A stretch of DNA of 21,745 nucleotides, taken from positions 1 to 21,745 of IMG/VR virus record IMGVR_UViG_3300042312_000452; one strand, 5' to 3'. Made by a program: the position numbers and the translations under genes. Numbering within the stretch: the first letter of the stretch is position 1; each line of letters starts with the position of its first letter. The DNA is from a virus. The notes below the pieces were generated by a model. It worked only from the letters and a program-made list of their open reading frames with translations. It searched no databases and was not told the DNA's origin. Positions 4,356 through 21,745 of this stretch are shown one piece after another.

Positions 4356-4356
4356 A

Positions 4357-7200: not shown

Positions 7201-7208
7201 TATAAATA
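7201..7208 (+). promoter_or_regulatory. T4-type late promoter box TATAAATA
   Basis: A perfect match to the T4 late promoter -10 element, recognised by gp55-bearing RNA polymerase with gp33 and the clamp as coactivators. It begins at the first base after the gene 43 stop codon and is the only perfect copy I found on the + strand. Transcription would start near 7214, so the RNA would open with the hairpin 7214-7234. The next genes include uvsX and 41, which are usually early or middle genes. Confidence 0.6.
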
Positions 7209-7273: not shown

Positions 7274-7690
7274 ATGACTGATACAATTTCAAATTGGACT
7301 TTATTTGGTGTCCATCTCACTTCAATCGAACTTTATGAATATTATTCGGAAGAGAATGATTGTCATTTTTATAATTCTAGCATTACTATATCATTAGATA
7401 ATGGTCTTACAAAAGAATTTGAACAAGTAGTTACATTATTTACTGATATTTGGGAAGAAGATCCTGTTTTGTGTGCTGTTGACACTGCTTTATCTGTAAA
7501 CAATTTATTTTCATTATCTCGTTATGTTATGATTTTTAATCAAGATGGATCTCAAATGGGAGAATTCTTTTTACCTGAAGATTTTGATGATATTAAAAAT
7601 ATTGATATTAATTGGTTATCTGAACAAGAAGATGAAGAACCTATTTCTGGTATAGATATAGAACAATCAACAAAAATTTTGATGATATGA
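7274..7690 (+). CDS. Acidic protein of unknown function
   Basis: 138 residues, strongly acidic, with an AAGGA ribosome site (7264-7268). It alternates predicted strands in the first 60 residues ('LFGVHLTSIELYEYY', 'NSSITISLDNGLTKEF') with a more helical middle ('DPVLCAVDTALSVNNLFSLS') and ends in an acidic tail. No catalytic motif, signal or membrane segment is recognised. It is the first gene after the late box and hairpin. Its stop overlaps the endonuclease start as ATGA. I do not recognise the family. Confidence 0.8.
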   Translation: MTDTISNWTLFGVHLTSIELYEYYSEENDCHFYNSSITISLDNGLTKEFEQVVTLFTDIWEEDPVLCAVDTALSVNNLFSLSRYVMIFNQDGSQMGEFFLPEDFDDIKNIDINWLSEQEDEEPISGIDIEQSTKILMI

Positions 7691-8409: not shown

Positions 8410-9482
8410 GTTTATTAGAAAAATTACAAAAAGCAGGCACAATAAAACAAGCTGCAGTTCTAGCTAATTCCCCATTCTTTAATGCAAAAGATTGTATTCA
8501 AACCAATCTACCAATTTTAAATGTTGCTTTTTCTGGATCATTATCTGGAGGTTTAGTTCCTGGTCTTACAGTTTTTGCTGGTGCTTCAAAATCATTTAAA
8601 ACTCTTCTAGGGTTATATTGTATGAAAGCATATTTCGACAAATACCCTGATGCAGTTGCTTTAGTTTATGATTCTGAATTTGGTATTACGCCAGAATATC
8701 TTGCTTCAAATGGTATTGATACATCTAGAGTTATCCATATCCCAATTGAACATATTGAAATGTTAAAATTTGATATTGTTAAGAGATTAGAAGAAATTAA
8801 ACGAGGAGATAAAGTATTTGTTCTTGTTGATTCGTTGGGTGCATTAAGTTCGAAAAAAGAAGTTGAAGACGCATTAGATGAAAAATCAGTAACTGATATG
8901 ACAAGAGCAAAAGCGATTCGATCTTTATTGAGAATTATTACTCCACATTTAACAATGAAAGATATTCCTTGCGTGGTAATAAATCATATCTACCAAACAA
9001 TGGAGCTGTACTCTAAAGCTGTGGTTGGTGGCGGTACAGCAGTAATGTATTCTGCTAATCAAATTTTTATTATTTCTAAATCACAAGAAAAAGATGGTTC
9101 TGATTTAGTAGGGTGGAATTTTACTATTAATATCGAAAAGTCTCGATTTGTTAGAGAAAAAGCAAAATTACCATTTACTGTAAAATTTGAAGGCGGTATT
9201 TCAAAATGGAGCGGTTTATTGGATATTGCTCTTGAATCTGGTCATATTGTTAAACCATCAAATGGTTGGTATTCTAAAGTAAATACTGAGACAGGCGAGA
9301 TTGAAACGAAAAAATATCGCCTTAAAGAAACTGAAAATAAAGAATTTTGGTCTAGTATTATTTTAGATCAATCTTTTGATTCTTGGGTTAAACAAAATTA
9401 TCAAATTTCTAATGGATTATTAATGGATAATAGTATTTCAGATGAAATAATTTCTGAAGCATTTAGTGGTGAGGAAGAATAA
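8406..9482 (+). CDS. uvsX: RecA-like recombinase UvsX
   Basis: Strand-exchange ATPase driving recombination-dependent replication and repair. It has 358 residues (T4: 391). Walker A reads GASKSFKT (59-66), close to the T4 'PSKSFKS' form, and Walker B 'KVFVLVDSLGALS' has D142. 'VVINHIYQTMELY' followed by 'VVGGGTAVMYSANQIFIISK' covers the L2 DNA-binding region found in T4 UvsX. The C-terminus is acidic (SGEEE), as in many RecA-like proteins. The start overlaps the endonuclease stop as ATGA. Helicase gp41 lies two small genes downstream. Confidence 0.95.
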   Translation: MSLLEKLQKAGTIKQAAVLANSPFFNAKDCIQTNLPILNVAFSGSLSGGLVPGLTVFAGASKSFKTLLGLYCMKAYFDKYPDAVALVYDSEFGITPEYLASNGIDTSRVIHIPIEHIEMLKFDIVKRLEEIKRGDKVFVLVDSLGALSSKKEVEDALDEKSVTDMTRAKAIRSLLRIITPHLTMKDIPCVVINHIYQTMELYSKAVVGGGTAVMYSANQIFIISKSQEKDGSDLVGWNFTINIEKSRFVREKAKLPFTVKFEGGISKWSGLLDIALESGHIVKPSNGWYSKVNTETGEIETKKYRLKETENKEFWSSIILDQSFDSWVKQNYQISNGLLMDNSISDEIISEAFSGEEE

Positions 9483-9483
9483 T

Positions 9484-9684
9484 ATGAAATTGACATCAGA
9501 TGAACAATTATATTTGGGTGTTGTTGGGTTTTGCATTTTATTTATTGGATGGGGACTAGCTGCTTGGATTACTCATGTTATCACATGTATCCAAAACAGT
9601 GAATGGTTATTCTTGATTGCTGGAGCCATTGCGGTCCCAGTAGCTTGGGTTCACGGAACCGGAATTTGGTTTGGTATTTGGTAG
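9484..9684 (+). CDS. Small two-helix membrane protein
   Basis: 66 residues from ATG 9484. An earlier GTG-type start (9466) would lie in the uvsX tail and displace the GAGGA site (9471-9475) that fits this ATG. Two hydrophobic segments, about residues 9-31 and 42-64, are separated by the short polar loop 'CIQNSEW', a hairpin typical of an inner-membrane protein. It starts one base after the uvsX stop. Small membrane proteins at this spot occur, as I recall, in other marine T4-like phages. Anchoring replication to the membrane or altering the host membrane are possible roles, both guesses. Confidence 0.8.
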   Translation: MKLTSDEQLYLGVVGFCILFIGWGLAAWITHVITCIQNSEWLFLIAGAIAVPVAWVHGTGIWFGIW

Positions 9685-9693
9685 GAGAAAATA

Positions 9694-10014
9694 ATGGTTG
9701 ACTATAAAGAAGAAATAGATTATAATTTTATTGAGGTTAACGGATTTGCTGGAATCAAGATTGCAGAAGTTCCATTTAAGGGTGTGATTTACACATACTC
9801 TAATGTATCTATTGCTGAAGCTGAAGACACATCTGAAGAAGCCGTTTTGTCATTTAATTTTGATGTTATTGATTTAGCTGGGTGTACAGAAGAAGAAATA
9901 CATACTGTAGAATTTAAATCTAAAATTGGTGATATTTTACTTTCAATATTGCAAAATAGTGTGGAGAATAAGGTTGAATCTGAACAAACTAATTTTGAAG
10001 AATCTTCATTATAA
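9694..10014 (+). CDS. Small acidic protein of unknown function between uvsX and 41
   Basis: 106 residues with AGGAG (9683-9687) overlapping the previous stop. A short beta-rich pattern ('FIEVNGFAGIKIAEVPFKGV' then 'IYTYSNVSIAEAED', 'AVLSFNFDVIDLAG') is followed by 'IHTVEFKSKIGDILLSILQN' and an acidic tail. It contains no recognised motif. Its last 41 bases overlap the start of the helicase gene in another frame, which suggests coupled expression. Confidence 0.75.
   Translation: MVDYKEEIDYNFIEVNGFAGIKIAEVPFKGVIYTYSNVSIAEAEDTSEEAVLSFNFDVIDLAGCTEEEIHTVEFKSKIGDILLSILQNSVENKVESEQTNFEESSL
9963..9976 (+). promoter_or_regulatory. Ribosome binding site and TTG start of helicase gene 41
   Basis: GGAGA (9963-9967) lies 6-7 bases before TTG 9974-9976, an ideal spacing. 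The frame has no ATG near the position expected from T4 gp41, and an upstream in-frame ATG (9926) would add residues unlike T4 and has no ribosome site. Confidence 0.65.
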
Positions 10015-11365
10015 TGAAGAATACACAAGAAAAGTATTACCATTTATAAAACCTGATTATTTTAAAGAAAGAAGTGAAAAAGTTATTTTTAATGAAATCT
10101 CTTCTTTCGTTACTGATTATGGGAATATACCAACGTATGAAGCGTTGGTAATTCAGTTAAGTGAAAAATCGTTATCTGATGATGAGTATACAGAAACTCT
10201 TGATGTTTTAAAAGAGTTTCATGAAACACGTGCAGAAACAGTAGATTTAGAATGGTTAGTTGACAAAACAGAAGGATTTTGTCAAGAAAAGGCGATTTAT
10301 AATGCAGTTCTTGAATCTATATCAATTTTGGATAATTCCCACAAAGAATTATCCAAAGGTTCAATTCCTAAGTTATTATCTGATGCATTAGCAATATCTT
10401 TTGATTCTAGTGTTGGTCATGATTATTTAGATGATAGCGATTCTCGATATGATTATTATCATAGAACAGAAGAAAGAGTTCCATTCGCATTAAATTATTT
10501 TAATAAAATTACTAATAATGGTTTACCGAAAAAAACTTTAAATGTTATTCTTGCTCCTCCTCATGGAGGCAAAAGTTTAATGATGTGTGATTGGGCAGCA
10601 AGTTTTCAACAAGGTGGTAATAATGTCTTGTATATAACTTGTGAGATGGCTGAAGAAGAAATTGCGAAACGTATTGATGCTAATCTTCTTAGAATATCAA
10701 TGGATGAATTGATGACTATGGATAAACCATCTTATGAAAAAAAGATGAAGTATCTTAAGTCTAAAACTGTTGGAAAATTATTTGTCAAAGAATATCCAAC
10801 AGCAGCAGCAAATGTAAATCATTTTAGAACTTTATTGAATGAGTTACGATTAAAAAAGAATTTTGTTCCGGATGTAGTATTTGTTGATTATCTTAATATT
10901 TGCGCTAGTTCTAGAATGAAAATGTCAGGTGGTGTTAATTCCTATACATATATTAAAGCAATTGGTGAAGAATTGCGCGGTTTTGCTCAAGAATTTAATC
11001 TTCCTGTGGTTACAGCAACACAAACAACTCGTAGTGGTGCAGCATCTAGTGATATTGATATGAACGATGTTTCTGAATCGTTTGGTATTCCAGCTATTGC
11101 TGATTTTATGGTTGCTATTATCAATAGTGAAGAATTGTATGAGTTAAACCAAATAATGGTTAAACAATTAAAAAATCGTTATAGAGATTTGAATCTTAAT
11201 AAAAGATTTGTTATTGGTGTTGATAGAGCAAAGATGAGATTATATGATGTTGAAGATTCAGCTCAAGATGGTATTGTTGATGCTGGTGAAAAACAAGAAG
11301 AATCATATAAATCGACTTTTGGTAAAAAATTAGAAAAAAAATCTTTTGATGGGTTTAAGGTATAA
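9974..11365 (+). CDS. 41: Replicative DNA helicase, gp41-like (DnaB family), TTG start
   Basis: Hexameric 5'-3' helicase of the primosome. From TTG 9974 the protein has 463 residues (T4: 475) and its first residues align with T4 ('LILKNLHYNEEYTRKVLPFI' versus 'IILSHLIFDQAYFSKVWPYM'). Walker A 'APPHGGKS' (194-201) differs from the T4 'AGVNVGKS' form but keeps GKS. 'VLYITCEMAEEEIAKRIDAN' matches T4 'VLYISMEMAEEVCAKRIDAN'. Walker B 'VVFVDYLNIC' has D305. 'YPTAAANVNHFRTLLNELRL' followed by 'KKNFVP' and 'SFGIPAIADFM' match T4 closely. The gene overlaps the previous one by 41 bases and ends one base before the sugar cassette. Confidence 0.93.
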   Translation: MNLNKLILKNLHYNEEYTRKVLPFIKPDYFKERSEKVIFNEISSFVTDYGNIPTYEALVIQLSEKSLSDDEYTETLDVLKEFHETRAETVDLEWLVDKTEGFCQEKAIYNAVLESISILDNSHKELSKGSIPKLLSDALAISFDSSVGHDYLDDSDSRYDYYHRTEERVPFALNYFNKITNNGLPKKTLNVILAPPHGGKSLMMCDWAASFQQGGNNVLYITCEMAEEEIAKRIDANLLRISMDELMTMDKPSYEKKMKYLKSKTVGKLFVKEYPTAAANVNHFRTLLNELRLKKNFVPDVVFVDYLNICASSRMKMSGGVNSYTYIKAIGEELRGFAQEFNLPVVTATQTTRSGAASSDIDMNDVSESFGIPAIADFMVAIINSEELYELNQIMVKQLKNRYRDLNLNKRFVIGVDRAKMRLYDVEDSAQDGIVDAGEKQEESYKSTFGKKLEKKSFDGFKV

Positions 11366-11366
11366 T

Positions 11367-12080
11367 ATGAAAAGTGCAGTTGTAATAGTCCCAACAACAG
11401 GGGCTAAAACCTTGAAAAAAACGATCGAGAGCATTGCTAGGCAGTCATATACAAATTTAACAGCCCTTGTTGTTATTGATGGGAAAGAACATCGTAGCAA
11501 GGTCGAGAGGATCCTTGTTAGAAATTTATCGAACCTAGATACTCAAGTTGTTTGTCTATCTGATAATGTTGGAGCTAATGGGTTTTATGGACATAGAGTC
11601 TATGCTGGTTTTTCTCATTTAGTGAATCATGATTATGTGTTCTTTTTAGATCAAGATTGTTGGTTAGAACCGACTCATATTGAATCTATGATCAACTCAT
11701 TAGAAACCAGTAATAGTGATTGGGTTTATAGTTTACGCAATATTACTGATAAAGAAGGTAATTTTTTGTGTTACGATGATTGTGAAAGTTTAGGTAAATG
11801 GGAAGCCTGGACTAATACATATCATATAGACACTAATTGTTATTGTTTGAAAAGACAAGTTGCAGTTGCAATTGCTGGAGCATGGCATGGTGGTTGGGGG
11901 CAAGACAGAGTTGTGCGTCAAGCTTTAGCTCAATATTTCCCGAAATATGAATGTACTGGTAAATATACAGTAAATTATAGGTTAGATGGTAATGAGGGTT
12001 CAGTAACAAAAGAATTTTTTGAACATGGTAATTATAAAATGGCTCAAAAATATGATGGAAATTTTCCTTGGAGGGTGTGA
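11367..12080 (+). CDS. GT-A (family 2-like) glycosyltransferase
   Basis: 237 residues from ATG 11367 with AAGG (11357-11360) upstream; a longer reading from 11346 would begin inside the helicase gene. It opens 'SAVVIVPTTGAKTLKKTIES' then 'IARQSY.NLTALVVIDG', the classic GT2 nucleotide-sugar fold. It continues with 'LSDNVGANGFYGHRVYAGFS' and 'YVFFLDQDCWLEP', a D-x-D type metal site (LDQDC). 'TNCYCLKR' and 'GGWGQDRVVRQAL' fit the acceptor side, where the D could be the catalytic base. It would transfer a sugar from a nucleotide donor; donor and acceptor unknown. It is the first gene of the carbohydrate cassette, and its 5' part looks richer in G+C than its neighbours. Confidence 0.85.
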   Translation: MKSAVVIVPTTGAKTLKKTIESIARQSYTNLTALVVIDGKEHRSKVERILVRNLSNLDTQVVCLSDNVGANGFYGHRVYAGFSHLVNHDYVFFLDQDCWLEPTHIESMINSLETSNSDWVYSLRNITDKEGNFLCYDDCESLGKWEAWTNTYHIDTNCYCLKRQVAVAIAGAWHGGWGQDRVVRQALAQYFPKYECTGKYTVNYRLDGNEGSVTKEFFEHGNYKMAQKYDGNFPWRV

Positions 12081-12445
12081 TGCAAATTGTTGAAAAGTTG
12101 TGGGGGTATGAGAAAATTATTGTTAATACTGATTTATATTGTGGTAAGGTAATTCATATCAATAAAGGTCATATTGGTTCATTTCATTATCATGCAGTTA
12201 AAGATGAAACTTTTTATTTGCAAAGCGGTAATGTTAAGTTAAAGTATTCTGATTCAGATGATTACGAGAATAGTAAAGAAATTACTCTTTTACCTGGAGA
12301 TGCATTTAGAATTTATCCTGGATTACGTCATCAAATAATTGGTTTACAGGATTCAGATATTATTGAATTTTCTACACATGATAAAAATGAAGATTCATAT
12401 AGAGTTATTTCTAGCGAAAAATTTATAGGAAATTATAATGAGTAA
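12080..12445 (+). CDS. Cupin, sugar-phosphate isomerase/ManC C-domain type
   Basis: 121 residues from ATG 12080, with a near-perfect GGAGGG site (12070-12075); the shared A gives a TGATG overlap with the previous stop. 'VEKLWGYEKIIVNTDLYCGK' followed by 'VIHINKGH' is the typical opening of mannose-6-phosphate isomerase-like cupins. Cupin motif 1 'GSFHYHAVKDETFYLQSG' supplies H36, H38 and E43. Motif 2 'PGDAFRIYPGLRHQI' supplies H84. All four metal ligands are present. Stand-alone cupins of this type isomerise or epimerise sugar phosphates or assist a guanylyltransferase. It probably helps to make the donor sugar. Confidence 0.85.
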   Translation: MQIVEKLWGYEKIIVNTDLYCGKVIHINKGHIGSFHYHAVKDETFYLQSGNVKLKYSDSDDYENSKEITLLPGDAFRIYPGLRHQIIGLQDSDIIEFSTHDKNEDSYRVISSEKFIGNYNE

Positions 12446-12779
12446 AGTAACAATTGAATGTGATGTTGGTAATATTAGTGATGGTTATCATACATTTAAT
12501 GAATTATATGCACATAGGTGTTCATTATTTGCAGGATTAATGAAATCACATAAAAATCTTGCATGGAAAAGTTTAGTTCATAATGATGGGGCTAGTTATG
12601 ATGGTTGGTTTATTGCTGGTATGAATTTGCCAACAGGAACTATTACCTATCACCTTCCATACAACGAATTTTGGAATTCAACTTCAGATATCCTTGAATT
12701 AGAGGTTGCTCCTGAATGGGACGGGCATACATCAGAAGATGTTATTAAAAGAATTATAAGTTGGGTTGCCACACTATGA
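12438..12779 (+). CDS. Conserved phage protein with WDGHTS motif, function unknown
   Basis: 113 residues with TAGGA (12426-12430) and an 8-base overlap with the cupin gene. It shows 'SDGYHTFNELYAHRCSLFAG', 'KSLVHNDGASYDGWFIAGMN', 'GTITYHLPYNEFW' and a terminal 'APEWDGHTSEDVIKRIISW'. I recognise this as a widespread small protein of phages and prophages without assigned function. Several conserved His, Asp and Trp residues suggest a small binding or catalytic fold. It is the one member of the cassette with no obvious link to sugars, so it may be a passenger. Its stop overlaps the next start (ATGA). Confidence 0.8.
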   Translation: MSKVTIECDVGNISDGYHTFNELYAHRCSLFAGLMKSHKNLAWKSLVHNDGASYDGWFIAGMNLPTGTITYHLPYNEFWNSTSDILELEVAPEWDGHTSEDVIKRIISWVATL

Positions 12780-13453
12780 AATTTGAAATTAATTCTCTCT
12801 ATTGGGATAATGGTAAACATTTAGTTAAATCTCATACACAAGTTATGAATCATTTTAACTTGCCTATAAATTATTATAATTTAAATGGTGTACATCATGG
12901 TTTATGGATGAATTATGTATTAGAAAATTCAACTTCAGATATTGTGGGATTTATTGAAAATGATTGTGTTCCGTTAAACAGAGAAATTGTTGATTATTCT
13001 ATTGACTACGTTTCAAAATCCGGAACGTTTATTGGTTGTGCTCAAGTAGCTAATCATATTCCACCATTTAATCATATCTATGCTGCTCCTTGTTTTTATT
13101 TTATATCTCGAGAATTTTGGAATAATTTGGGAAAACCAAGTTTCTTAGAAACTCCGAGATCTGATGTTGCTGAAGAAATTTCTAGATTAGCTGATGAAAG
13201 AAAACTAATGTATAAAGCATTATACCCAACACAATTTGAGCGATCTCCAGAAGAAGGAATTTGGAAATTGAGTAATTATGGATATTATGGTATAGGAACT
13301 GTTTTTGCTGATAGTGTTTATCACCTATATCAAGGTAGATCTCAACAAAATGCTGATCTATATAAAATAAGATGTGACCAAATAATTAATGGAACTTTTA
13401 CTACAGAAAATTTTTATTCTAGCACAGAATATTACAATGGAAAGGTATTTTGA
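12776..13453 (+). CDS. GT-A-like glycosyltransferase, unassigned family
   Basis: 225 residues from ATG 12776, joined to the previous gene by ATGA; a TTG-type extension to 12761 has no support. 'NSLYWDNGKHLVKSHTQVMN' and 'GLWMNYVLENSTSDIVGFIE' followed by 'NDCVPLN' resemble a glycosyltransferase core in which IENDC stands where LDQDC stands in the first cassette gene. 'APCFYFISREFWN' and 'DVAEEISRLADER' follow. The C-terminal 'YGIGTVFADSVYHLYQGRSQ' carries a histidine next to a loop, as in GT2-like enzymes. No membrane segment. The glycosyltransferase call is moderate; it could also be a degenerate GT-A relative. Confidence 0.65.
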   Translation: MKFEINSLYWDNGKHLVKSHTQVMNHFNLPINYYNLNGVHHGLWMNYVLENSTSDIVGFIENDCVPLNREIVDYSIDYVSKSGTFIGCAQVANHIPPFNHIYAAPCFYFISREFWNNLGKPSFLETPRSDVAEEISRLADERKLMYKALYPTQFERSPEEGIWKLSNYGYYGIGTVFADSVYHLYQGRSQQNADLYKIRCDQIINGTFTTENFYSSTEYYNGKVF

Positions 13454-14163
13454 TGATTATTAATATTCAACAAAAAGATTTTGGTGGAAGAATTCGAAGC
13501 GGTGATATTTTAGGGGTTTGTAATTTACTAGAACATATAAGGATTATTCTGAATAATCCTTATATTAAAATTTATCTCCCTGATGAATCTATTGAAGATA
13601 GTTCTTCAGTAAAGAAATTTAGAGAATTTTTAAAGGAACATACTGATTATTTTTCTGATATTGCTGGTGATCAATATTTTCAATTCGAAAAATTTAATGT
13701 CTGGGATTATAGATCAATTTCCGGCGATCTAGTCCAAGTTGATAATACAAAATATAAGAAAGAAGATAAAATTTGTATTTTTCCATTATTTGATGCACAA
13801 TATAATATTTATAGGAATTGGAGCATTGATTTAATGAAAACAATTATTCAATATTATCAACAAAATTTTAAAGGACGTATTATTGTTTGTACTCACGAAG
13901 ATCAAAAAGATTTTATTGAAAGAAATTTCCTTGGATTAGAATATTCGTATGATTATGATGAAAATATACAACATTTGATTACGTGTAAATATTTTGCTGG
14001 TGGTGATACTGGAACGAGTCATTTAGCTGGATCATTAATTAATAGACCTAAGAATTTATTTTTCTATTCAGCTCAAGAAATTTTTCACACATTTCCTTTG
14101 AATTTTAAAGAGAATGAGATGGTAATGTATAGCGCATTTGGGTGTAAAATAAATGTTAGATAA
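13453..14163 (+). CDS. GT-B/heptosyltransferase-like protein
   Basis: 236 residues from ATG 13453, which shares a base with the previous stop (TGATG); a TTG three bases earlier is not needed. The order of elements fits a shortened GT-B enzyme: 'DFGGRIRSGDILGVCNLLEH' at the front, 'CIFPLFDAQYNIYRNWSIDL' in the middle (compare heptosyltransferase 'P.....KRWP...'), 'GRIIVCTHEDQKDFIERNF' as the strand-helix before the donor site, and 'FAGGDTGTSHLAGSLINRPK' as the glycine-rich donor-binding loop seen in GT9 enzymes. It is shorter than usual GT9 proteins (about 320-350), so it may be a reduced form. Confidence is moderate. Confidence 0.6.
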   Translation: MIINIQQKDFGGRIRSGDILGVCNLLEHIRIILNNPYIKIYLPDESIEDSSSVKKFREFLKEHTDYFSDIAGDQYFQFEKFNVWDYRSISGDLVQVDNTKYKKEDKICIFPLFDAQYNIYRNWSIDLMKTIIQYYQQNFKGRIIVCTHEDQKDFIERNFLGLEYSYDYDENIQHLITCKYFAGGDTGTSHLAGSLINRPKNLFFYSAQEIFHTFPLNFKENEMVMYSAFGCKINVR

Positions 14164-14785
14164 TTATAAAATGTATGACGATGGTAGAGTAAGACAAATT
14201 GAAACAAAACCTTTTGTTTACGATTATTCTTATTCTGATATTTACAATTCCGAACAATATAAATTAAATTCAAAATTAATTTCATATTTAAGATATGGTT
14301 ATATTGTTGGAAGTATTGGTAGAACTCCAACTTCAATTTTAGACGTTGGTTATGGTAATGGAGAATTTCTTTTAGCTGCATCAAATCAAGTTATAGATTG
14401 TTTTGGATATGACGTTTCTGATTATCCAATACCGGATGGAATTCAACGAAGTCCAAGTATGTTTGATAGAAAATATGATGTTATTACATTTTTCGATTCT
14501 TTAGAACATTTTCCTGATATTGATTTTGTTAAAGAATTAAAGTGTAATTTTGTTTGTATTTCTGTTCCTAATTGTTTTTATTTTAGTGATGAATGGTTTG
14601 ATAATTGGAAACATAGAAAACCAGATGAACATATTTGGCATTTTAATTATCAGGCATTAGTTGGTTTTATGGGTGCTAATGGTTATTGGTTAGTAAATTC
14701 AACTGATGTTGAAGATACTATAAGAAAAAATAACCAACCATATTCAAATATTTTAACTTGTGTATTTAAGAAAAATTATGATTGA
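14153..14785 (+). CDS. Class I SAM-dependent methyltransferase
   Basis: 210 residues, overlapping the previous gene by 11 bases; ATG 14153 has a modest GGTG site 8 bases away. Motif I 'SILDVGYGNGEFLLAA' (61-76) binds S-adenosylmethionine; D87 in 'FGYDVSDYP' would hold the ribose; 'YDVITFFDSLEHFPD' (108-122) is the post-motif region typical of methyltransferases of family 11/23; 'EHIWHFNYQALVGFMGANGY' matches the end of family 23-type enzymes. In sugar clusters such proteins methylate sugar hydroxyls or nucleotide sugars. Target unknown. Confidence in the methyltransferase fold is high. Confidence 0.87.
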   Translation: MLDNYKMYDDGRVRQIETKPFVYDYSYSDIYNSEQYKLNSKLISYLRYGYIVGSIGRTPTSILDVGYGNGEFLLAASNQVIDCFGYDVSDYPIPDGIQRSPSMFDRKYDVITFFDSLEHFPDIDFVKELKCNFVCISVPNCFYFSDEWFDNWKHRKPDEHIWHFNYQALVGFMGANGYWLVNSTDVEDTIRKNNQPYSNILTCVFKKNYD

Positions 14786-15443
14786 AAATATTGTTATCGT
14801 TCCATCTGCAATTGGAGCAAGAATTGGTGTTATTGATATTAAAGATAGATTTACTCAAACTCTTGAGGGGTTAAAATCTATTAGAGAACGAATACCAAAT
14901 TCTTATATAATTTTTTGTGATTGTTCATTGGAATCAACTGGTGGTGACGCTGGTGTAATCTTACCATTAGTTGATCAATATTTTGATTTTGCTCAACATG
15001 AACAAGTTCGTCAATTTAGTATGTATGGGATGAAATCTCATGGTGAATTGGTAATGTTTGTTTCTGCAATTCAATTTGCTTTAGCTAATATTGATATGTC
15101 ATCAGTTGATAGAATTTTCAAATTGGGTGGAAGAGGTATTTTAAACGATCAGTTTGATATTGAAAAATATAAGGAAGCTAAAGGTAAATATGTTTTCAAA
15201 ACTCCATCAGATTCATGGATGGGTAATGGTATGAAAATTTACGAAACCAGAATGTATTCTTTACATAAAGATAATATTGATGATTATTTCAAAAAATTTG
15301 ATAATATTATTGGTTCTTGTGAAGGTGGGTTTCAATCAGAACATTCTCATTACAAATGTTTAGATCCTGATATGGTTTATCCTTTTGAAACATTAGGGTT
15401 ACAGTACGTTGTATCATCAACAGGTCAAACTGCATACGATTAA
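14778..15443 (+). CDS. Putative glycosyltransferase-like protein
   Basis: 221 residues from ATG 14778; a reading from 14760 would add six residues within the methyltransferase gene. 'MIENIVIVPSAIGARIGVID' is followed by 'TLEGLKSIRERIPNSYIIFC' and 'DCSLES', a strand-helix-strand start like a GT-A nucleotide-binding half with an acidic DCS. 'DRIFKLGGRGILNDQFDIEK' resembles the 'K.SGRY.L...F' segment I have seen in capsule and virus glycosyltransferase-like proteins. 'GSCEGGFQSEHSHYKCL' may be an acceptor loop. No firm family. The gene overlaps the methyltransferase by 8 bases and lies 2 bases before the epimerase gene. Confidence 0.55.
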   Translation: MIENIVIVPSAIGARIGVIDIKDRFTQTLEGLKSIRERIPNSYIIFCDCSLESTGGDAGVILPLVDQYFDFAQHEQVRQFSMYGMKSHGELVMFVSAIQFALANIDMSSVDRIFKLGGRGILNDQFDIEKYKEAKGKYVFKTPSDSWMGNGMKIYETRMYSLHKDNIDDYFKKFDNIIGSCEGGFQSEHSHYKCLDPDMVYPFETLGLQYVVSSTGQTAYD

Positions 15444-15445
15444 TT

Positions 15446-16249
15446 ATGAAAAATATTTTAATAGTTGGTGGAAGTTTTGTTGGAAGTCATCTATTCAATC
15501 CTGATATTAATTTTAACTATGAATTAGTTTCTCATAGAAATGTTAATAGTGTTGATTTCAATAAATTTGATATTGTTATCAATACAGCATTATCTCCTTC
15601 CTACCGAGATAGTAAATATCATCGGTCTTTTGATATTGATGTACAACTTGCTGAGCGAGCAAATTTAGCTGGTTGTTATTATGTTATGTTATCATCAAGA
15701 AAGGTTTATGGTAATTCAAAAGAATTAAAAACTTTTGTTGAAACTGATCCATATAATCCATTTGATTTTTATAGTGAAAATAAAGCAATAACAGAACAAC
15801 ATCTATTACAAAATTTTGAAAATGTTTGTATTATAAGGGGTTCTAATTTTTTTGGTTTTGAGCCCTATAGAACTTCATTTTTTGGTTTTTGTTTAACAAA
15901 TTTATTAGAACAAAATAAAATTGAATTCAATTTGAATAAAAATATTGTTAGAGATTTCATTTATATTGATGATGTTGTATATCTTTTAAATGCAATTTTT
16001 AAAATTGAACCAAAGGGTATTTTTAATCTTGGTTTAAATAAAGGTTTTACTGTAAAAGATATTGCGGATAATTTGATAATGGGATATGGTTCTGGTATTT
16101 TTATCGGAAGTGATAATCTTCCATTTGATCAACAATTTATTTTAAACACAAATAAGTTATATAAAACTATTGATTTTACTCCAAACTATATAGATTATGA
16201 GAATACTATAAAAAGTGTTGGTTGGAAATTGAAGAATTTAAAAGGATAG
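15446..16249 (+). CDS. NAD(P)-dependent sugar epimerase/dehydratase (extended SDR)
   Basis: 267 residues. Rossmann loop 'ILIVGGSFVGSHLF' (GGSFVGS, residues 8-14), 'DIVINTALSPSYR', catalytic serine region 'YYVMLSSRKVYGN' (S83/S84), active-site Y109 and K113 in 'FYSENKAITEQ', then 'VCIIRGSNFFGFEPYRTSFF' and 'VRDFIYIDDVVYLLNAIF', as in GDP-fucose synthase, RmlD and GalE-type enzymes. The enzyme would change a nucleotide sugar by epimerisation, reduction or dehydration; the exact reaction cannot be read. It is shorter than typical members (about 310) by small deletions, but all catalytic residues remain. Confidence 0.9.
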   Translation: MKNILIVGGSFVGSHLFNPDINFNYELVSHRNVNSVDFNKFDIVINTALSPSYRDSKYHRSFDIDVQLAERANLAGCYYVMLSSRKVYGNSKELKTFVETDPYNPFDFYSENKAITEQHLLQNFENVCIIRGSNFFGFEPYRTSFFGFCLTNLLEQNKIEFNLNKNIVRDFIYIDDVVYLLNAIFKIEPKGIFNLGLNKGFTVKDIADNLIMGYGSGIFIGSDNLPFDQQFILNTNKLYKTIDFTPNYIDYENTIKSVGWKLKNLKG

Positions 16250-16251
16250 TT

Positions 16252-17067
16252 ATGTTAACAATTGTAACAGAATGGTTTGATTTAGAAAGAAGTAAATGGG
16301 AAGGTGTTAGAAATAATCGTATGATCCCTCCATTTATTAAAAGAAGTAGAGATGATTATTTCAAGTATTTTAATAATTTATGTGAAATTAGAAACCCTAT
16401 CATAATTTATACGGAACCTCATTTAGTTGAAGAATTTACAGAAATCGGTAAAGTGCATAATGCTGATTTAACTGTTATTCCTTATGATTTTTTTGGAAGT
16501 TTTACTGATATCAGGGATAAAATTATTAATATAATGAATTCTGAACAATTCATTAATTTTGTTCAAGACCCTTCATTACCTGAATATTGGAATGAAAATT
16601 ATGTTTTGGTAAATTTCTTAAAAACTATTCTAGTAAAGAAAAGTTATGATGATGGTTTAATTCCTGATGATGTAGCTGCAGCTTGGATTGATTTTGGTTA
16701 TGTTAGAGATAAAGATAGATTTCCTGTGACAGAAAATTTTAGCTGGAAATATGATGCATTTAATGATGATAAAATTCATCTATTCCAAATTAAAGATATT
16801 GATCAAACAACAAATATTATGGATACATTAAAATATAATATTGTGTATTTTCAAGGTTGCCATGCTGTATCAAACAAATATGGTTGGGACAAATATCAAA
16901 AAATTATGGAATTAAGTTTACATGAATTATTAATTAATAATTTGGTGGATGATGATCAAACATTAATGTTAATGTCATATTTAAAATTTCCAAGTTTCTT
17001 TACACCACATAAACTTGATCCAAATAAAGATGGTTGGTTTGTTATCTTTAAGGAATTTTACGAATGA
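16252..17067 (+). CDS. WlaTC/HtrL-family glycosyltransferase-like protein
   Basis: 271 residues from ATG 16252 with AAAGGA (16241-16246) ending at the epimerase stop; a reading from 16222 begins inside the epimerase gene. The opening 'MLTIVTEWFDLERSKWEGVR' followed by 'NNR', then 'DDYFKYFNNLCEIRNPIIIY', is typical of the WlaTC/HtrL (YibB) family found in bacterial LPS and capsule loci. 'AAAWIDFGYVRD' has the conserved WIDFG element and 'IVYFQGCHAVSNKYGWDKY' the later histidine region. Members are thought to be glycosyltransferases, but direct biochemical proof is limited as far as I know. The stop overlaps the next start (ATGA). Confidence 0.8.
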   Translation: MLTIVTEWFDLERSKWEGVRNNRMIPPFIKRSRDDYFKYFNNLCEIRNPIIIYTEPHLVEEFTEIGKVHNADLTVIPYDFFGSFTDIRDKIINIMNSEQFINFVQDPSLPEYWNENYVLVNFLKTILVKKSYDDGLIPDDVAAAWIDFGYVRDKDRFPVTENFSWKYDAFNDDKIHLFQIKDIDQTTNIMDTLKYNIVYFQGCHAVSNKYGWDKYQKIMELSLHELLINNLVDDDQTLMLMSYLKFPSFFTPHKLDPNKDGWFVIFKEFYE

Positions 17068-17771
17068 TTTTATATGCAGATGTCGGGACAGCAAACCTAG
17101 GAGATTTTACAAATTCATTACCTGTGCTATCTGGGTTGTATAAAAACTATGGAAAGATATCTTTAATTATTCAAGATGAAATGTTGAAATTTAATGGTAT
17201 CAAAGAATTTCTTTTAGCGCAAGAAATGTTTGATGTTGTTGCTTTTAAATCAGAAGTTCAATCTGTTACTGGTAATGTATTTGCTTTTAATTCTTGGGTC
17301 CAAGAAAAGAAATTAAATGACATTAGACCTATAGAAACTTGTAGGTATGAAATATTATTTAAAGAACGATATGGATTCGATTTTGAAACTGATGATAATT
17401 TTGTATTAACTGTTCCTGACCAAACAGTTGAACAAATTTCCAATCAACTTGTTGGTGATAGATGCGTTTCTACTACATCCGATAAACGCAGAAAATGTGG
17501 TTTATTAGAAGAATCAAATAAATTTAATGATCATTTATTTTTAGATTACACTAAACCAATTTTATATAATCTAAATTTAATAAAGAACTCTAAATACACA
17601 TTTATTACTACTGTAACTGGAATATCGGTTTTAGTAGATTTGATGAACCTAGAACAAAATATATATTATGAGGATGAGATGATTAATTGGGATAATAGAT
17701 CTAGTATTCAAGATACATTTGATCGTCATTATTATAAAAATAGACATTCTACCTTGGTACATTTAACATGA
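17064..17771 (+). CDS. Unknown protein, possibly GT-B-like
   Basis: 235 residues, ATGA overlaps on both sides. 'MILYADVGTANLGDFTNSLP' followed by 'VLSGLYKNYGKISLIIQ' looks like the N-terminal nucleotide-fold of a heptosyltransferase-type protein (G.A.LGD....P.L..L), with 'GDF' where 'GD' normally stands. 'NSKYTFITTVTGISVLVDLM' near the C-terminus takes the place of the donor loop seen as 'GGDTGTSHLAGSL' in the 13453 gene. The middle is too divergent to judge. A degenerate or shortened GT-B enzyme is the best guess; no firm family. Confidence 0.5.
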   Translation: MILYADVGTANLGDFTNSLPVLSGLYKNYGKISLIIQDEMLKFNGIKEFLLAQEMFDVVAFKSEVQSVTGNVFAFNSWVQEKKLNDIRPIETCRYEILFKERYGFDFETDDNFVLTVPDQTVEQISNQLVGDRCVSTTSDKRRKCGLLEESNKFNDHLFLDYTKPILYNLNLIKNSKYTFITTVTGISVLVDLMNLEQNIYYEDEMINWDNRSSIQDTFDRHYYKNRHSTLVHLT

Positions 17772-19141
17772 TAAAATTAATTATATTTGATTTAGATGGA
17801 GTTTTACTTGAATCTAAAGATTGGCATTATGATGCGTTAAATTCTGCTCTAGAAAAAATTGATCCAATGTATCGTATTTCATACGATGAACATCTAACGA
17901 AATATGACGGTCTTAATACAACAAAAAAATTAGACTTACTTGCTGTTGAAAAGGGGTTAAATAAAAAATATTTTAATCAAGTTTGGCAAGACAAACAGAA
18001 TGCTACGTTAGATATCATCAAAAAATTGGATGATGATTTAAAATTGATTGACATATTTTCCAAATTAAAACATCAAGGATATAAAATTGCTGTTGCTTCT
18101 AATTCAATTAGAGAAACTGTAAAATTATCTTTGTTGATGATTGGTGTATTGGAATTTGTTGATTATTTTGTTAGTAATGAAGATGTAAAACGAGCAAAAC
18201 CATTTCCGGAAATGTATTGGAAATGTATGACTGAACTTAATTGTATTCCGTTACAAACGCTTATTATTGAAGATAGTCATATAGGTCGTAAAGGTGCATT
18301 AGATTCTGGTGCATATCTATTGCCAGTTGAAAATCCACAAAATTTAACATTAAGTAAAATTGAATTAAAGTTAAAGGAACTTAATAATATGACTACTGAA
18401 AATACTATTCCATGGATTGATAAAAAGTTAAATGTTCTTATTCCTATGGCTGGATTGGGTTCCCGATTTGCACAACAAGGTTATACTTTCCCTAAACCAT
18501 TAATTGACGTTAATGGTAAACCTATGATTCAGGTTGTGGTAGAAAATCTTAACATCGATGCTAATTATATTTTTCTTGTTCAACAAGAACATTATGAGAA
18601 ATATAATTTAAGGCATCTATTAAATTTAATTTCCCCTAACTGTACTATTATTCAAGTTGATGGTTTAACAGAGGGTGCTGCTTGTACAGCTTTATTGGCT
18701 AAAGAATTTATTAATAATGATAATCCTTTATTAATTGCTAATAGTGATCAATATATTGAGTGGAATTCTAATGAAACTATGTATTCGTTTAGTAACGCGA
18801 AAATTGATGGTGGTATGTTAGTTTTTGAATCAACTCACCCAAAATGGAGTTTTGCTAAGTTAGATTCTAGTGGCTATATAGAAAGGGTTGCAGAAAAAGA
18901 TCCTATCTCAAATATTGCTTCAACAGGAATCTATTATTACACAAAAGGTTCTGATTTTGTTAAATATGCGGAACAAATGATTGAAAAAAATATTAGGGTT
19001 AATAATGAATTTTATATCTGCCCTGTATTTAATGAATTTGTAGAAAATAATAAATTGTTAACTGTAAAATATGTTAATAAGATGTATGGCATAGGGACTC
19101 CTGAAGATTTAACTAATTTTTTAACTAAAAATATTTTATGA
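17768..19141 (+). CDS. HAD phosphatase - sugar nucleotidyltransferase fusion
   Basis: 457 residues with two complete domains. Residues 1-205 are a HAD hydrolase of the beta-phosphoglucomutase-like group: motif I DLDGVLLES (D8, D10), motif II S111 in 'VASNSIRE', K144 in 'KRAKPFPEMY', motif IV 'IIEDSHIGRKGA' (E168, D169). From residue 220 a nucleotidyltransferase begins: 'LIPMAGLGSRFAQQGYTFPK' then 'PLIDVNGKPM' with the G-x-G-x-R and PKP motifs, 'LTEGAACTALLA', metal D327 in 'ANSDQYI', and 'STGIYYYTKGSDF'. It could dephosphorylate a sugar phosphate and then activate the sugar-1-phosphate. A possible second start lies at 18389. The stop overlaps the next start (ATGA). Confidence 0.9.
   Translation: MIKLIIFDLDGVLLESKDWHYDALNSALEKIDPMYRISYDEHLTKYDGLNTTKKLDLLAVEKGLNKKYFNQVWQDKQNATLDIIKKLDDDLKLIDIFSKLKHQGYKIAVASNSIRETVKLSLLMIGVLEFVDYFVSNEDVKRAKPFPEMYWKCMTELNCIPLQTLIIEDSHIGRKGALDSGAYLLPVENPQNLTLSKIELKLKELNNMTTENTIPWIDKKLNVLIPMAGLGSRFAQQGYTFPKPLIDVNGKPMIQVVVENLNIDANYIFLVQQEHYEKYNLRHLLNLISPNCTIIQVDGLTEGAACTALLAKEFINNDNPLLIANSDQYIEWNSNETMYSFSNAKIDGGMLVFESTHPKWSFAKLDSSGYIERVAEKDPISNIASTGIYYYTKGSDFVKYAEQMIEKNIRVNNEFYICPVFNEFVENNKLLTVKYVNKMYGIGTPEDLTNFLTKNIL
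18373..18391 (+). promoter_or_regulatory. Possible internal ribosome site and start for the nucleotidyltransferase domain
   Basis: AAAGGA (18373-18378) lies 10 bases before an in-frame ATG (18389-18391, residue 208), exactly at the linker between the HAD and nucleotidyltransferase domains. It may be a relic of two fused genes, or may produce a separate roughly 250-residue nucleotidyltransferase. Confidence 0.4.
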
Positions 19142-19851
19142 AAACAGCAGTATTATTAAATGGTAATTATAGAACTTTTGATAGATGTTCACCAGTATTT
19201 TTAGATAAATTTAATCCTCTTTCCCCTGATTATTTTATTAACACCTATGATGTTCGTTATATGTATCATGGTTGTATTAAAAATGCTTTAAATTTTTATG
19301 ACGAACAATCAATTGATATAAATTCATTTTCTGAGTTTGAATATAAAGATATTTTAATTGATTCTTATTCTGATATGGTACAATATTTTGATACAGAAAT
19401 ACTACCAACAATTCATCCAGCAATGATTCTTGAAAATGGTTCTTCTTATTTACAATTAGTAAAATGGAAGAAAGGTCTTGATATGATAACTAAATACGAG
19501 ATTGCAAATAAAATTAAATATGATCTTATCATTTTAACAAGATTTGATGTTATCCCCAATTCAATTGACCATCTAAATTATTTTGATATTATTAATAAAG
19601 TTATAATGAATAAATGTTCCATGGGTTTTGCTAATGATCAAATTTTAATTTCTACTAAAGGAAATCTACTTCAGATTATTGATTTTATGCTTTCGGAATT
19701 TCATAATTTTACAATTGAATCAAGTAGAAATACAATTCCACATAATTTAATGAAAAATGCCATTGATAGAATTGGTATTGTTCATGAAGAACATTCTCAA
19801 TTATTGCATTGTATTTTAAGAGAAAATAATGTAAAAGCATTGGTGGCTTAA
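19138..19851 (+). CDS. Putative polysaccharide-type glycosyltransferase, copy A
   Basis: 237 residues. It opens 'MKTAVLLNGNYRTFDRC' and has 'YDLIILTRFDVIPNS' in the middle. The same two signatures appear in the gene at 20298 ('MKIAILLPGHLRTWEYC' and 'YDLVIKSRFDILVED'), so the two are paralogues. The LL.G..RT opening plus the R-F-D element (possible metal site) is a pattern I have met in capsule and LPS loci and in giant-virus and phage sugar genes, where the proteins are taken to be glycosyltransferases. Function not proven. The stop codon TAA directly abuts the ATG of the next gene. Confidence 0.6.
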   Translation: MKTAVLLNGNYRTFDRCSPVFLDKFNPLSPDYFINTYDVRYMYHGCIKNALNFYDEQSIDINSFSEFEYKDILIDSYSDMVQYFDTEILPTIHPAMILENGSSYLQLVKWKKGLDMITKYEIANKIKYDLIILTRFDVIPNSIDHLNYFDIINKVIMNKCSMGFANDQILISTKGNLLQIIDFMLSEFHNFTIESSRNTIPHNLMKNAIDRIGIVHEEHSQLLHCILRENNVKALVA

Positions 19852-20301
19852 ATGAAAATTATTTGTCATAGAGGTAATCTAAACGGTCCAAATATTTTTA
19901 CTGAGAATCACCCTGATCAAATTGATTTATGTATATCAAAAGGGTATGATGTTGAAGTAGATCTTTGGTGTCATTATGGTGAATTTTATCTTGGTCACAA
20001 TAAAGGAATGGATAGAATTTCATTATCTTATTTGGTAGAACGGAAAGATAAATTGTGGATTCATTGTAAAAATCAAGATGCATTATTCGCTTTAAATAAT
20101 CTTGGATTTAATTATTTTTGGCATCAAGAAGATGATGTTACAATAACATCGCACGAATTTATTTGGGCATATCCTGGTAAACAAAAAAAACCATATAGAA
20201 ACATTGTTATACTTGATTTTTCTGAAAAAGTTAATTTTGACTATTATAGAAATCTTGGTGTTTATGCCATTTGTGTTGATTATGTTGAGGAACGAGAATG
20301 A
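19852..20301 (+). CDS. Miniature glycerophosphodiester phosphodiesterase-like protein
   Basis: 149 residues. The opening 'MKIICHRGNLNGPNIFTENH' has the HRG motif (H6, R7) and 'N..TEN.P'; 'GYDVEVDLWCHYGEFYLGHN' supplies E35, D37 and H49. All metal and catalytic positions of the GDPD/PI-PLC-like TIM barrel are thus in place. Usual GDPD domains have 220-250 residues, so the second half of the barrel is missing or very reduced, ending 'RNLGVYAICVDYVEERE'. Short GDPD-like proteins occur in capsule loci; they may cleave glycerol-phosphate or another phosphodiester, or merely bind a sugar phosphate. The stop overlaps the next start as ATGA. Confidence 0.75.
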   Translation: MKIICHRGNLNGPNIFTENHPDQIDLCISKGYDVEVDLWCHYGEFYLGHNKGMDRISLSYLVERKDKLWIHCKNQDALFALNNLGFNYFWHQEDDVTITSHEFIWAYPGKQKKPYRNIVILDFSEKVNFDYYRNLGVYAICVDYVEERE

Positions 20302-20990
20302 AAATTGCTATCCTTCTTCCAGGTCATTTAAGAACTTGGGAATATTGTAAACAAAATTTTATTGATAAATTTATTGATGAGCGCCATCAAATAGATATTT
20401 TTGTTGACACTTATAATGAAGTTGAGTCTGCTTATCCAACTGATAGATTAGATCTATATCCTAAAAATAAAAAACTCGTTCTGAGCAATCATGAAGTATT
20501 TGATTTATTTTCTGATTTAAATGTTGTGATGTTTAATGTTGAATCTGAAGAAATTAATAGGGGATTTGAGCAAGGACCACAAGCAGTAAAAATTGAAAAA
20601 TGCTATAAATTATTTCAAGATTACGTTTCCGTTCATGGTGAATATGATTTAGTTATTAAAAGCAGATTCGATATTCTTGTTGAAGATAAAATTGATTATA
20701 ACTTTTTCTGTGAGAATACTTTAAATAATAATTTTTTATTTACAAGTCATATAGATATTAATAGTCAAAAATTTGGTTTTGGTAGAAATTATTGCGATCA
20801 TTTAGGGATTGGTAATTCTGATGTAATGGATAAGTATCTTACAAGATATTCTAAATTTTTAAGGAAATATGAAGTTTATCATGGATCATTAGATGGGTTA
20901 ATCAATGAATATAATCTCCATAGATCTTCTGACTATATACATAGTGGGTTGGTTAGATTTAATGGTGATAATTATGAAATTATTTGGTAG
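20298..20990 (+). CDS. Putative polysaccharide-type glycosyltransferase, copy B
   Basis: 230 residues, paralogue of the gene at 19138, sharing the 'LL.G..RT' opening, 'F.DKF' and a 'YDL.I..RFD' element at nearly the same distance. The rest has diverged strongly, with many short insertions or deletions, so the duplication is old or both were acquired separately. 'FGFGRNYCDHLGIGNSDVMD' followed by 'KY' later in the chain suggests the 'fGf.d....g....m..y' stretch common in this group. Assigned as glycosyltransferase by motif and context only. The TAG stop contributes to the AGGA site of the following gene. Confidence 0.62.
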   Translation: MKIAILLPGHLRTWEYCKQNFIDKFIDERHQIDIFVDTYNEVESAYPTDRLDLYPKNKKLVLSNHEVFDLFSDLNVVMFNVESEEINRGFEQGPQAVKIEKCYKLFQDYVSVHGEYDLVIKSRFDILVEDKIDYNFFCENTLNNNFLFTSHIDINSQKFGFGRNYCDHLGIGNSDVMDKYLTRYSKFLRKYEVYHGSLDGLINEYNLHRSSDYIHSGLVRFNGDNYEIIW

Positions 20991-20996
20991 GAAATT

Positions 20997-21745
20997 ATGA
21001 AAAAAGTTATTATATCGCATATTTACAATGAAGAATATTTACTTCCGTGGTGGTTGAATCATCATAAAAAATATTTTGATCATGGTATTATTATTGATTA
21101 TGATTCAACAGATAGATCTGCAGAAATTGTAAAAGAAATTTGTCCAACGTGGGAATTTGTTAGATCAAAAAATTCAGAATATAATGAAGTTGAATTACAA
21201 AATGAAGTTTTTGAATATGAATCTAGATATGGTGAGGATGTGTGGAAAGCCTGTCTAAATGTAACTGAATTTTTAATTGGTGATTTTAATTCGCTAGATA
21301 GTACACTGGGGGTTAATATTATCCCTTGTTTGTATTTTATTGATGATCAAGAATTGCGAGACTCTTCCACATTATCATATGATAAACCGTTATGGGAAAT
21401 TATTAAAACTGGGTTAGACGTTCCATTTACGTTAGATTTTAGGGGGTCTAGAGCAATTCATACTCCTAATTTCAGATATCCTCCTGGAAGACATTTTAGA
21501 AGAATAATTAATACTGATAGATTTATCATTTTCAATTATGGGTTTGCTCCTATGACAGAGGAATTCTATAAAAGAAAATTACAAGTTCAGGAATTAATTC
21601 CTTATGAGGAGAGAGTTAAACATAATGGTGGTGCACATACTGATGCATTAAATCCAAATGGATTAACTAGAGAACGGTTAGTTGAGATGTATAGAGAATA
21701 TGTACCAATTGATAATCCGCATTTTCCTAGATTAATGCCTAGGTG
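20997..21745 (+). CDS. GT92/DUF23-like glycosyltransferase (3' end outside window)
   Basis: The frame opens with ATG 20997 (AGGA at 20989-20992) and stays open for 249 codons to the window edge, so the gene is cut. 'VIISHIYNEEYLLPWWLNHH' followed by 'KKYFDHGIIIDYDSTDRS' is the opening of GT2/GT92-like glycosyltransferases (..NE...L..W..hh...g......D..S.D.s). The variant DYDSTD takes the place of the usual DNNSTD. 'CLNVTEFLIGDFNSL' would carry the second acidic pair and 'RAIHTPNFRYPPGRHF' the conserved late histidine area. Full length and C-terminal domain cannot be judged. Confidence 0.78.
   Translation, partial: MKKVIISHIYNEEYLLPWWLNHHKKYFDHGIIIDYDSTDRSAEIVKEICPTWEFVRSKNSEYNEVELQNEVFEYESRYGEDVWKACLNVTEFLIGDFNSLDSTLGVNIIPCLYFIDDQELRDSSTLSYDKPLWEIIKTGLDVPFTLDFRGSRAIHTPNFRYPPGRHFRRIINTDRFIIFNYGFAPMTEEFYKRKLQVQELIPYEERVKHNGGAHTDALNPNGLTRERLVEMYREYVPIDNPHFPRLMPR

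Follow-up and report, generated by a model that had tools for sequence, protein, structure and literature searches.

What a phage would do with a long run of sugar genes set directly behind its replicative helicase is the question raised by the virus record IMGVR_UViG_3300042312_000452. The window analysed here is the whole 21.7-kb record (positions 1 to 21,745). Its left half is a T4-like replication core encoding gp45, gp44, gp62, regA, PAAR, hsp20, a deaminase, gp43, HNH, uvsX and gp41 (the identities of gp45, gp44 and gp43 rest partly on alignment with relatives), and from gp41 onward it carries a dense series of genes related to carbohydrate synthesis and transfer, referred to as the island. 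The gene content, gene order and operon layout of the island, the conservation of its site and the turnover of its content can be read directly from the sequences compared. The best explanation found, to which an even chance is given, is that the island is a phage operon that would remodel the surface glycan of the host during infection.

Extent and gene content of the island

Fifteen consecutive plus-strand open reading frames (ORFs) run from 11,364 to the contig end (ORF list; Table 1), the first of them overlapping gp41, the left flank of the island, by 2 bp. Beyond position 21,745 the island could be followed in contig L002, which is 99.992% identical to window positions 9343–21,745 (12,403 bp) and reaches 4.8 kb further. 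It completes the last transferase of the window (c15; complete copy at L002:11655-12455) and adds four genes, specifying a GT4-like protein (a weak family match), a DUF5672 protein, an RfbH-like protein and a second short SDR (SDR2), after which comes DUF6267. Contig L162 shows the same genes in the same order, at 100% identity, from c14 to DUF6267. The complete island of 19 genes spans about 14.2 kb (11364 to 25594 in window-equivalent numbering, L002 positions being shifted by +9342), and its intergenic gaps range from -11 to +6 bp, with the sole exception of 59 bp before RfbH in the extension. No tRNA gene was found in the window, an Rfam scan of L002 returned no match, and a search for recombination repeats at the island ends gave nothing convincing.

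Proteins were assigned by family scans (Pfam, PHROG and NCBIfam) and by fold comparison (AlphaFold2 models, Foldseek and VIA-align). Eleven of the 19 genes have family or fold support as sugar-nucleotide enzymes or glycosyltransferases (one of them weak), three specify compatible accessory enzymes (cupin, methyltransferase and GDPD-like), and five are without a sugar-enzyme assignment (WDGH, YibB, DUF5672 and two orphans at 12776-13453 and 17064-17771). In the window, matches above the Pfam cut-offs were obtained for GT2, cupin, WDGH, methyltransferase, SDR, HtrL_YibB, HAD_2 with NTP_transferase, and GT2_4, and DUF7796 was matched twice (c12 and c14), weakly. With gp45, gp44, gp62, regA, gp43, uvsX and gp41 leading into many sugar-nucleotide and glycosyltransferase genes, the locus fits the definition of a T4-like phage glycan cluster.

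A preliminary description of this DNA had proposed a phage-borne cassette for carbohydrate synthesis and transfer in a T4-like phage, which the 15 genes of the window, and 19 with L002, bear out. Several of its details need revision. The protein read as a cupin isomerase is supported as a cupin (PF07883) and not as an isomerase; in the protein read as a HAD phosphatase with a nucleotidyltransferase both domains stand, and the HAD half resembles beta-phosphoglucomutase and may be a mutase. The count of seven or more glycosyltransferases becomes five (GT2, GT2_4 and three of GT-A type) plus one GT9-like protein supported in the window, seven or more being possible if YibB or the orphans at 12776-13453 and 17064-17771 are counted as candidates, and the WDGH protein at 12438-12779 is no recognised sugar enzyme.

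A fixed site and its changing content

Related viral contigs were mapped and compared at the junction between gp41 and DUF6267, the lineage of the window being taken as those contigs with a DUF6267 44–100% identical to that of L002. All 34 contigs of the lineage that span the site have sugar genes in a gp41–DUF6267 interval of 5.4–14.9 kb. Some of these contigs are near-identical, and those baited with RfbH or HAD-nucleotidyltransferase (HAD-NT) are biased towards sugar genes; 17 of the 34 came from a gp41 search, which is independent of island presence. In 15 contigs the identity of DUF6267 to that of L002 does not exceed 37%; their interval is 0.6–3.5 kb and none of them has such an island. 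Cultured Melnitz (one gene between gp41 and DUF6267) and S-WAM1 (four genes) are also of the short type, and together with the 15 distant contigs they provide the cassette-free relatives with which the preliminary description had proposed a comparison. Its proviso, that close relatives might carry the same genes as unrelated, scattered singletons, did not apply: relatives of the same lineage keep the genes together at the same site and in a recurring order, SDR1-YibB-c10-c05-(MT)-c17-RfbH-SDR2, where MT is the methyltransferase. The most regular gene at the left end of the island is c01.

Although the site is fixed, the content is not. Contig L083 and the window share 94% DNA identity over 1-2690 and 3852-7200, 78% to position 12082 and 74% to 13405, beyond which, within the window's part of the island, there is no DNA match. 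Replication DNA that is 94% identical thus adjoins an island that is largely different, showing that island content turns over between close relatives. In many related phages gp41 is separated from the first sugar gene by a gene for a DruA-like (Druantia defence) protein, for example at L089:3371-4480 (PF14236, E 2.5e-10; PADLOC DruA, E 4e-9; 29 proteins of 303-381 aa).

The T4-type late promoter is TATAAATA, and the version of cyanophage S-PM2 is NATAAATA (PMC2984593). A late-promoter motif lies upstream of DUF6267 in 63 of 82 distinct relatives, mostly at 48-53 bp, and was found upstream of gp41 in none of 75, of c01 in none of 73 and of RfbH in none of 54. As the total count of TATAAATA in the window and in L002 is below shuffle expectation, this placement is not a by-product of AT-richness and only the position is informative. 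Sigma-70-like promoter matches did not exceed the shuffle level. The layout, as distinct from a transcript, suggests that the island is transcribed by read-through from the replication genes and ends before the late unit. Another TATAAATA occurs at window 7201-7208, directly past the gp43 stop and 66 bp before a 138-aa ORF at 7274.

Most of the genes also appear to be held under constraint. Pairwise dN/dS values (nonsynonymous to synonymous divergence) to contig L169, which are rough as dS is about 1 in this comparison, were 0.15 for RfbH, 0.17 for the GT4-like gene, 0.20 for HAD-NT, 0.21 for GDPD and 0.25-0.28 for five more; those of the replication genes gp41 and gp43 were 0.17 and 0.13. Such values argue against unselected cargo.

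Two recurring enzyme modules and their neighbours

The first module lies at the right end of the complete island. The RfbH-like protein of L002 matches E1 structures at 1e-70 and contains SFYPAHHISTGEGG, with His214 where transaminases carry the pyridoxal phosphate lysine (FYPAHHI motif), a trait of RfbH and E1. Four of its cysteines, C187 and, 57 residues on, C245-x-C247, then C259, align with those of E1 that bind a [2Fe-2S] cluster. Its NCBIfam RfbH score (351.6) is below the cut-off of 423, so that it is to be regarded as a relative of RfbH and not as a certified equivalog. SDR2 follows RfbH directly in 75 of 79 loci, and in 64 of these 75 DUF6267 comes next. In 17 relatives, some of them near-identical, a 4,6-dehydratase bearing STDEVY is encoded directly upstream of RfbH; all five of those scanned (L164, L183, L190, L199 and L228) pass the cut-off for dTDP-glucose 4,6-dehydratase, as does a more distant copy in L166. 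The RfbH of Methylophilaceae LSUCC0401 instead adjoins a CDP-glucose-type dehydratase with SDKCY. A CDP-linked substrate would be typical of RfbH/E1; judged by its neighbours in viral relatives, the putative 3,6-dideoxysugar branch of the phages may be dTDP-linked. No direct report of RfbH in a T4-like phage came up in the literature search.

The second module is formed by c11, a fused HAD-NT protein with 453 relatives among viral contigs, and the small GDPD-like protein c13. The HAD half of c11 gave a profile match to 1lvh/6hdi and is closest to beta-phosphoglucomutase; the NT half is closest to 4evw, a nucleoside-diphosphate-sugar pyrophosphorylase. A D-x-D motif, a hinge His and a cap Lys mark a mutase, and the corresponding D8, D10, H20 and K76 are nearly invariant in the HAD half, which may therefore be a mutase rather than a phosphatase. 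In c13 the HRG, ExD and GH motifs are kept in nearly all relatives, and H6, R7, E35, D37 and H49, the GDPD active-site residues, are invariant in the alignment, while the match to PDB profiles is weak. In 48 of 56 loci a GDPD-like gene follows c11 within 3 kb, and the pair is also chromosomal in Methylophilaceae, Pelagibacter, SAR86, Poseidoniales and others. In the LSUCC0401 chromosome (L252) it lies inside an O-antigen-like locus with RmlABCD-like, GalE-like, Wzx-like, Wzy-like and WecA-like ORFs (read by eye), and in Akkermansia (L291) HAD, NT and GDPD are separate genes within a polysaccharide region. We know of no described product of this module. In other viral lineages HAD-NT has other locations, such as downstream of DUF6267 or upstream of gp45.

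Several variants of the module were seen. The HAD, nucleotidyltransferase and GDPD-like genes keep together, whether fused or not, in bacteria and archaea (L252, L291, L296 and others) and in viral loci L003-L081. Other islands have a fusion of the opposite domain order, nucleotidyltransferase-HAD, or an APH-type kinase (L088:8810-9835, L094:10502-11245), and in the Akkermansia locus a kinase-like ORF stands after the HAD-NT-GDPD genes.

Several of the remaining genes are putative transferases. Ten of 15 members of the c05 family match PF01075 (best E 4e-4) and the GGDT and SH residues of the family are invariant; c05 itself has no PDB sequence match, and PDB sequence profiles for c05, c07, c10 and c14 gave no useful match. 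The c07 model returned an alpha-1,3-galactosyltransferase in Foldseek (E 4e-6) and aligned with SpsA (Z 13.3, 3.4 A, 181 residues); c07 is a probable glycosyltransferase, with near-ties to nucleotidyltransferases that leave its activity unsettled. For c14, also a probable glycosyltransferase by its model, the match was to BoGT6a (Foldseek E 7e-7; Z 14.7, 3.2 A, 183 residues to 4ayl). No Pfam or PHROG match was found for c04, which is a possible glycosyltransferase. No Pfam or PDB assignment could be made for c10, Pfam scans of its family members giving chance-level names only; in relatives it usually adjoins c05 or c09 (maps). The idea that c05 and c10 are related to each other was dropped, as comparison showed no relationship. 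Neither SDR1 (c08) nor SDR2 carries the TDE/TDK residues of 4,6-dehydratases (motif check). The WDGH gene c03 is found inside the island in near relatives only (L083-L085).

Table 1. Coordinates and assignments of gp41 and the island genes in the window.
Feature	Position	Strand	Basis
gp41-type replicative helicase	10052..11365	+	Pfam DnaB_C; T4-like gp41 matches in phages
c01, family 2 glycosyltransferase	11364..12080	+	PF00535 E 6e-12, over cut-off
c02, single cupin domain protein	12080..12445	+	PF07883 over cut-off; phrog_7851
c03, WDGH-domain protein	12438..12779	+	PF25311 E 4e-38
c04, orphan	12776..13453	+	homologues in near relatives only
c05, GT9 (heptosyltransferase)-like	13453..14163	+	PF01075 matched by family members
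c06, S-adenosylmethionine (SAM) methyltransferase	14153..14785	+	PF13489 E 2e-16
c07, GT-A-type fold	14778..15443	+	AlphaFold2 pLDDT 93.5
c08, short SDR (SDR1), sugar-nucleotide reductase/epimerase type	15446..16249	+	PF01370 E 1e-13; YSENK motif
c09, HtrL_YibB family protein	16252..17067	+	PF09612 E 1.5e-35
c10, conserved orphan family	17064..17771	+	alignment A2; maps
c11, fused HAD (beta-phosphoglucomutase-like) and sugar-1-phosphate nucleotidylyltransferase	17768..19141	+	PF13419, PF00483
c12, DUF7796-like, aligned with c14	19138..19851	+	GT-A type via c14 model
c13, small GDPD-like protein, 149 residues	19852..20301	+	alignment A7; weak profile match 7e0v E 0.016
c14, DUF7796-like, GT-A-type fold (GT6-like)	20298..20990	+	AlphaFold2 pLDDT 80.5
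c15, family 2 glycosyltransferase (GT2_4), cut by contig end	20997..21745	+	PF13704 over cut-off

The start of gp41 probably lies upstream of that listed, near 9977. Elsewhere in the replication core, a PAAR-motif (tail spike) protein is encoded at window 2686-2946, between regA and hsp20 and apart from structural genes, and a homing endonuclease-like gene lies at 7687-8409, between gp43 and uvsX. Contigs L083 and L084 are near-identical to the window in gp43 and only 63-66% identical in uvsX, directly past the homing endonuclease-like gene.

What the island may act on

Large lipopolysaccharide (LPS) clusters were described in the T4-like cyanophages P-SSM2, S-SSM7 and S-SM2 (PMC3037559), PMC2984593 giving 24 LPS genes for P-SSM2, and LPS genes are known from pelagimyophages (PMC7029224); the Synechococcus phages S-H68 and RN05-S have about 20 sugar-type genes. 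Contrary to the preliminary description, the island is therefore not exceptional among T4-like phages of aquatic bacteria. P-SSM2, S-SSM7 and S-SM2 resemble the window virus as T4-like myophages with big LPS-type clusters, thought to change the host surface (PMC3037559, PMC2984593), but theirs are in the vicinity of hli03 or phoH and of tRNAs (a trait of the described examples, not strictly a defining one), whereas the present island lies between gp41 and DUF6267; after its gp41, P-SSM2 has mazG, purH and others instead. An RfbH (about 55% identity) is also present in S-H68, RN05-S and S-B43, together with an SDR2 relative (43%), but in S-H68 and RN05-S the two genes are not neighbours and the cluster is flanked by tail/tRNA genes on one side and hli genes on the other. 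S-CAM9 has HAD-NT at 60%, near tRNAs and hli/psbA. Pelagimyophages are also aquatic T4-like phages, infecting streamlined bacteria, and the same purpose has been proposed for their genes, most of which belong to the tail-fibre host recognition cluster or to small sets of two or three (PMC7029224). The LSUCC0401 O-antigen locus is alike in having HAD-NT and GDPD among sugar-nucleotide enzymes, with RfbH 22 kb away, but it has a flippase, a polymerase and an initiating transferase. Clusters of this kind have thus been known since P-SSM2, with the same proposed purpose (PMC3037559, PMC2984593, PMC7029224), and as far as the searches show what is new is the gp41–DUF6267 slot, the lineage-wide presence with swapped content, the placement before the late promoter and the two enzyme modules.

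None of the island proteins has a membrane-like segment, and there is no flippase, polymerase or membrane initiating transferase, so that the island is not a Wzx/Wzy O-antigen locus, nor the near-complete LPS- or capsule-like locus of the preliminary description. Searches were extended to nine long relatives (records of 120-222 kb that may be incomplete, five from the lineage of the window, with positive controls), the window virus being available as a 21.7-kb fragment only. None of the nine has the Wzx family (PF01943), a thymidylate-synthase-family enzyme (including dCMP hydroxymethylase) or psbA. Lacking these membrane and Wzx genes and the thymidylate-synthase family, these phages would neither make a lipid-linked polymer alone nor have a known route to hydroxymethyl bases. 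A cyanophage label, suggested by gp41 similarity, was set aside on the absence of psbA from the nine relatives.

For the remodelling of the host surface the following course is proposed. Nucleotide sugars would be made in the cytoplasm, the fused HAD/nucleotidyltransferase activating a sugar phosphate, and RfbH with SDR2 would turn a 4-keto-6-deoxyhexose nucleotide, of host origin or due to an unseen phage gene, into a 3,6-dideoxy-type sugar. The cupin and methyltransferase may add variety to the sugars, which several soluble transferases of GT-A and GT-B type would pass to an acceptor. Reading on from gp41 and stopping short of the late promoter, the operon would act ahead of virion assembly. 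Since the island is without flippase, polymerase and ligase, the host's own lipid-linked O-antigen or LPS would most likely be extended or capped, giving an altered cell surface that plausibly excludes other phages. In this proposal the identity of the sugar, its acceptor, the time of action and the advantage to the phage are inferred.

Several points weigh against it. No membrane transferase in the island ties the pathway to the envelope. The window's own island (window and L002) has no 4,6-dehydratase and, as both short SDRs are without the TDE/TDK residues, the source of the 4-keto sugar has to be sought outside it. The fast-diverging c05, c06, c09, c10 and c12 have dN/dS values of 0.41-0.91 to L169, with dS near saturation. 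Enzymes made early could equally glycosylate virion proteins, and this is the first of the alternatives: soluble transferases would put the same sugars on proteins of the capsid or tail, and so mask or diversify the particle. They could reach phage proteins directly, the island having no membrane-like segments or export genes, and many pelagimyophage LPS-type genes cluster with tail fibres (PMC7029224). Even so, virion glycosylation is considered unlikely, as the late promoter after the island separates it from the late unit, the island is collinear with replication genes, and the clearest bacterial setting of HAD-NT and GDPD is an O-antigen locus. Of the three purposes offered in the preliminary description, host surface, virion and modified base, promoter layout and bacterial context would thus favour the first over the second, and the absence of the thymidylate-synthase family from the nine long relatives counts against the third.

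A copy of HAD-NT among housekeeping genes in one Pelagibacter also counts against a surface function, and favours a mixed use in which RfbH-SDR2 and HAD-NT-GDPD would produce metabolites that are soluble or phosphodiester-linked, the surface being the target of only some transferases. The HAD-NT-GDPD genes do travel as a unit in viruses, bacteria and archaea without fixed partners; their location in polysaccharide loci of Methylophilaceae and Akkermansia makes a mixed use rather improbable. The T4 glucosyltransferase gene is close to gp41, and a position directly after gp41 with an early/middle layout would also suit sugars put on phage bases. Hydroxymethylcytosine is glycosylated in some T4-like phages and arabinosylated in RB69 (PMC6024577). 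Against such hypermodification stand the lack of a hydroxymethylase in the nine long relatives, cyanomyoviruses without evidence of modified nucleotides (PMC2984593), and a number of transferases and a dideoxysugar branch beyond what a base requires, and its probability is put very low. Filling of the headful with neutral DNA was proposed for the LPS clusters of large cyanophages (PMC3037559) and would suit the highly variable content. It is scarcely credible here, with dN/dS far below 1 and near the gp41 level for most genes, all ORFs open and overlapping, and an island in every lineage member spanning the site.

A further reading is advanced tentatively, namely that the island may be a dedicated 'serotype locus' of the whole lineage. 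Complete glycan programmes would be exchanged at a fixed slot from replication module to late promoter, among them a 3,6-dideoxysugar branch, probably dTDP-linked, and a HAD/nucleotidyltransferase/GDPD route of a new kind to an activated sugar. If so, a branch of aquatic T4-like phages would keep a switchable glycan locus comparable to the O-antigen loci of bacteria, and phage-driven change of the bacterial surface and exclusion of rival phages would become directly testable. Two recurring enzyme modules are also singled out, RfbH-SDR2 and HAD-NT-GDPD, the latter present across hundreds of viruses as well as Pelagibacter, SAR86, Methylophilaceae and archaea.

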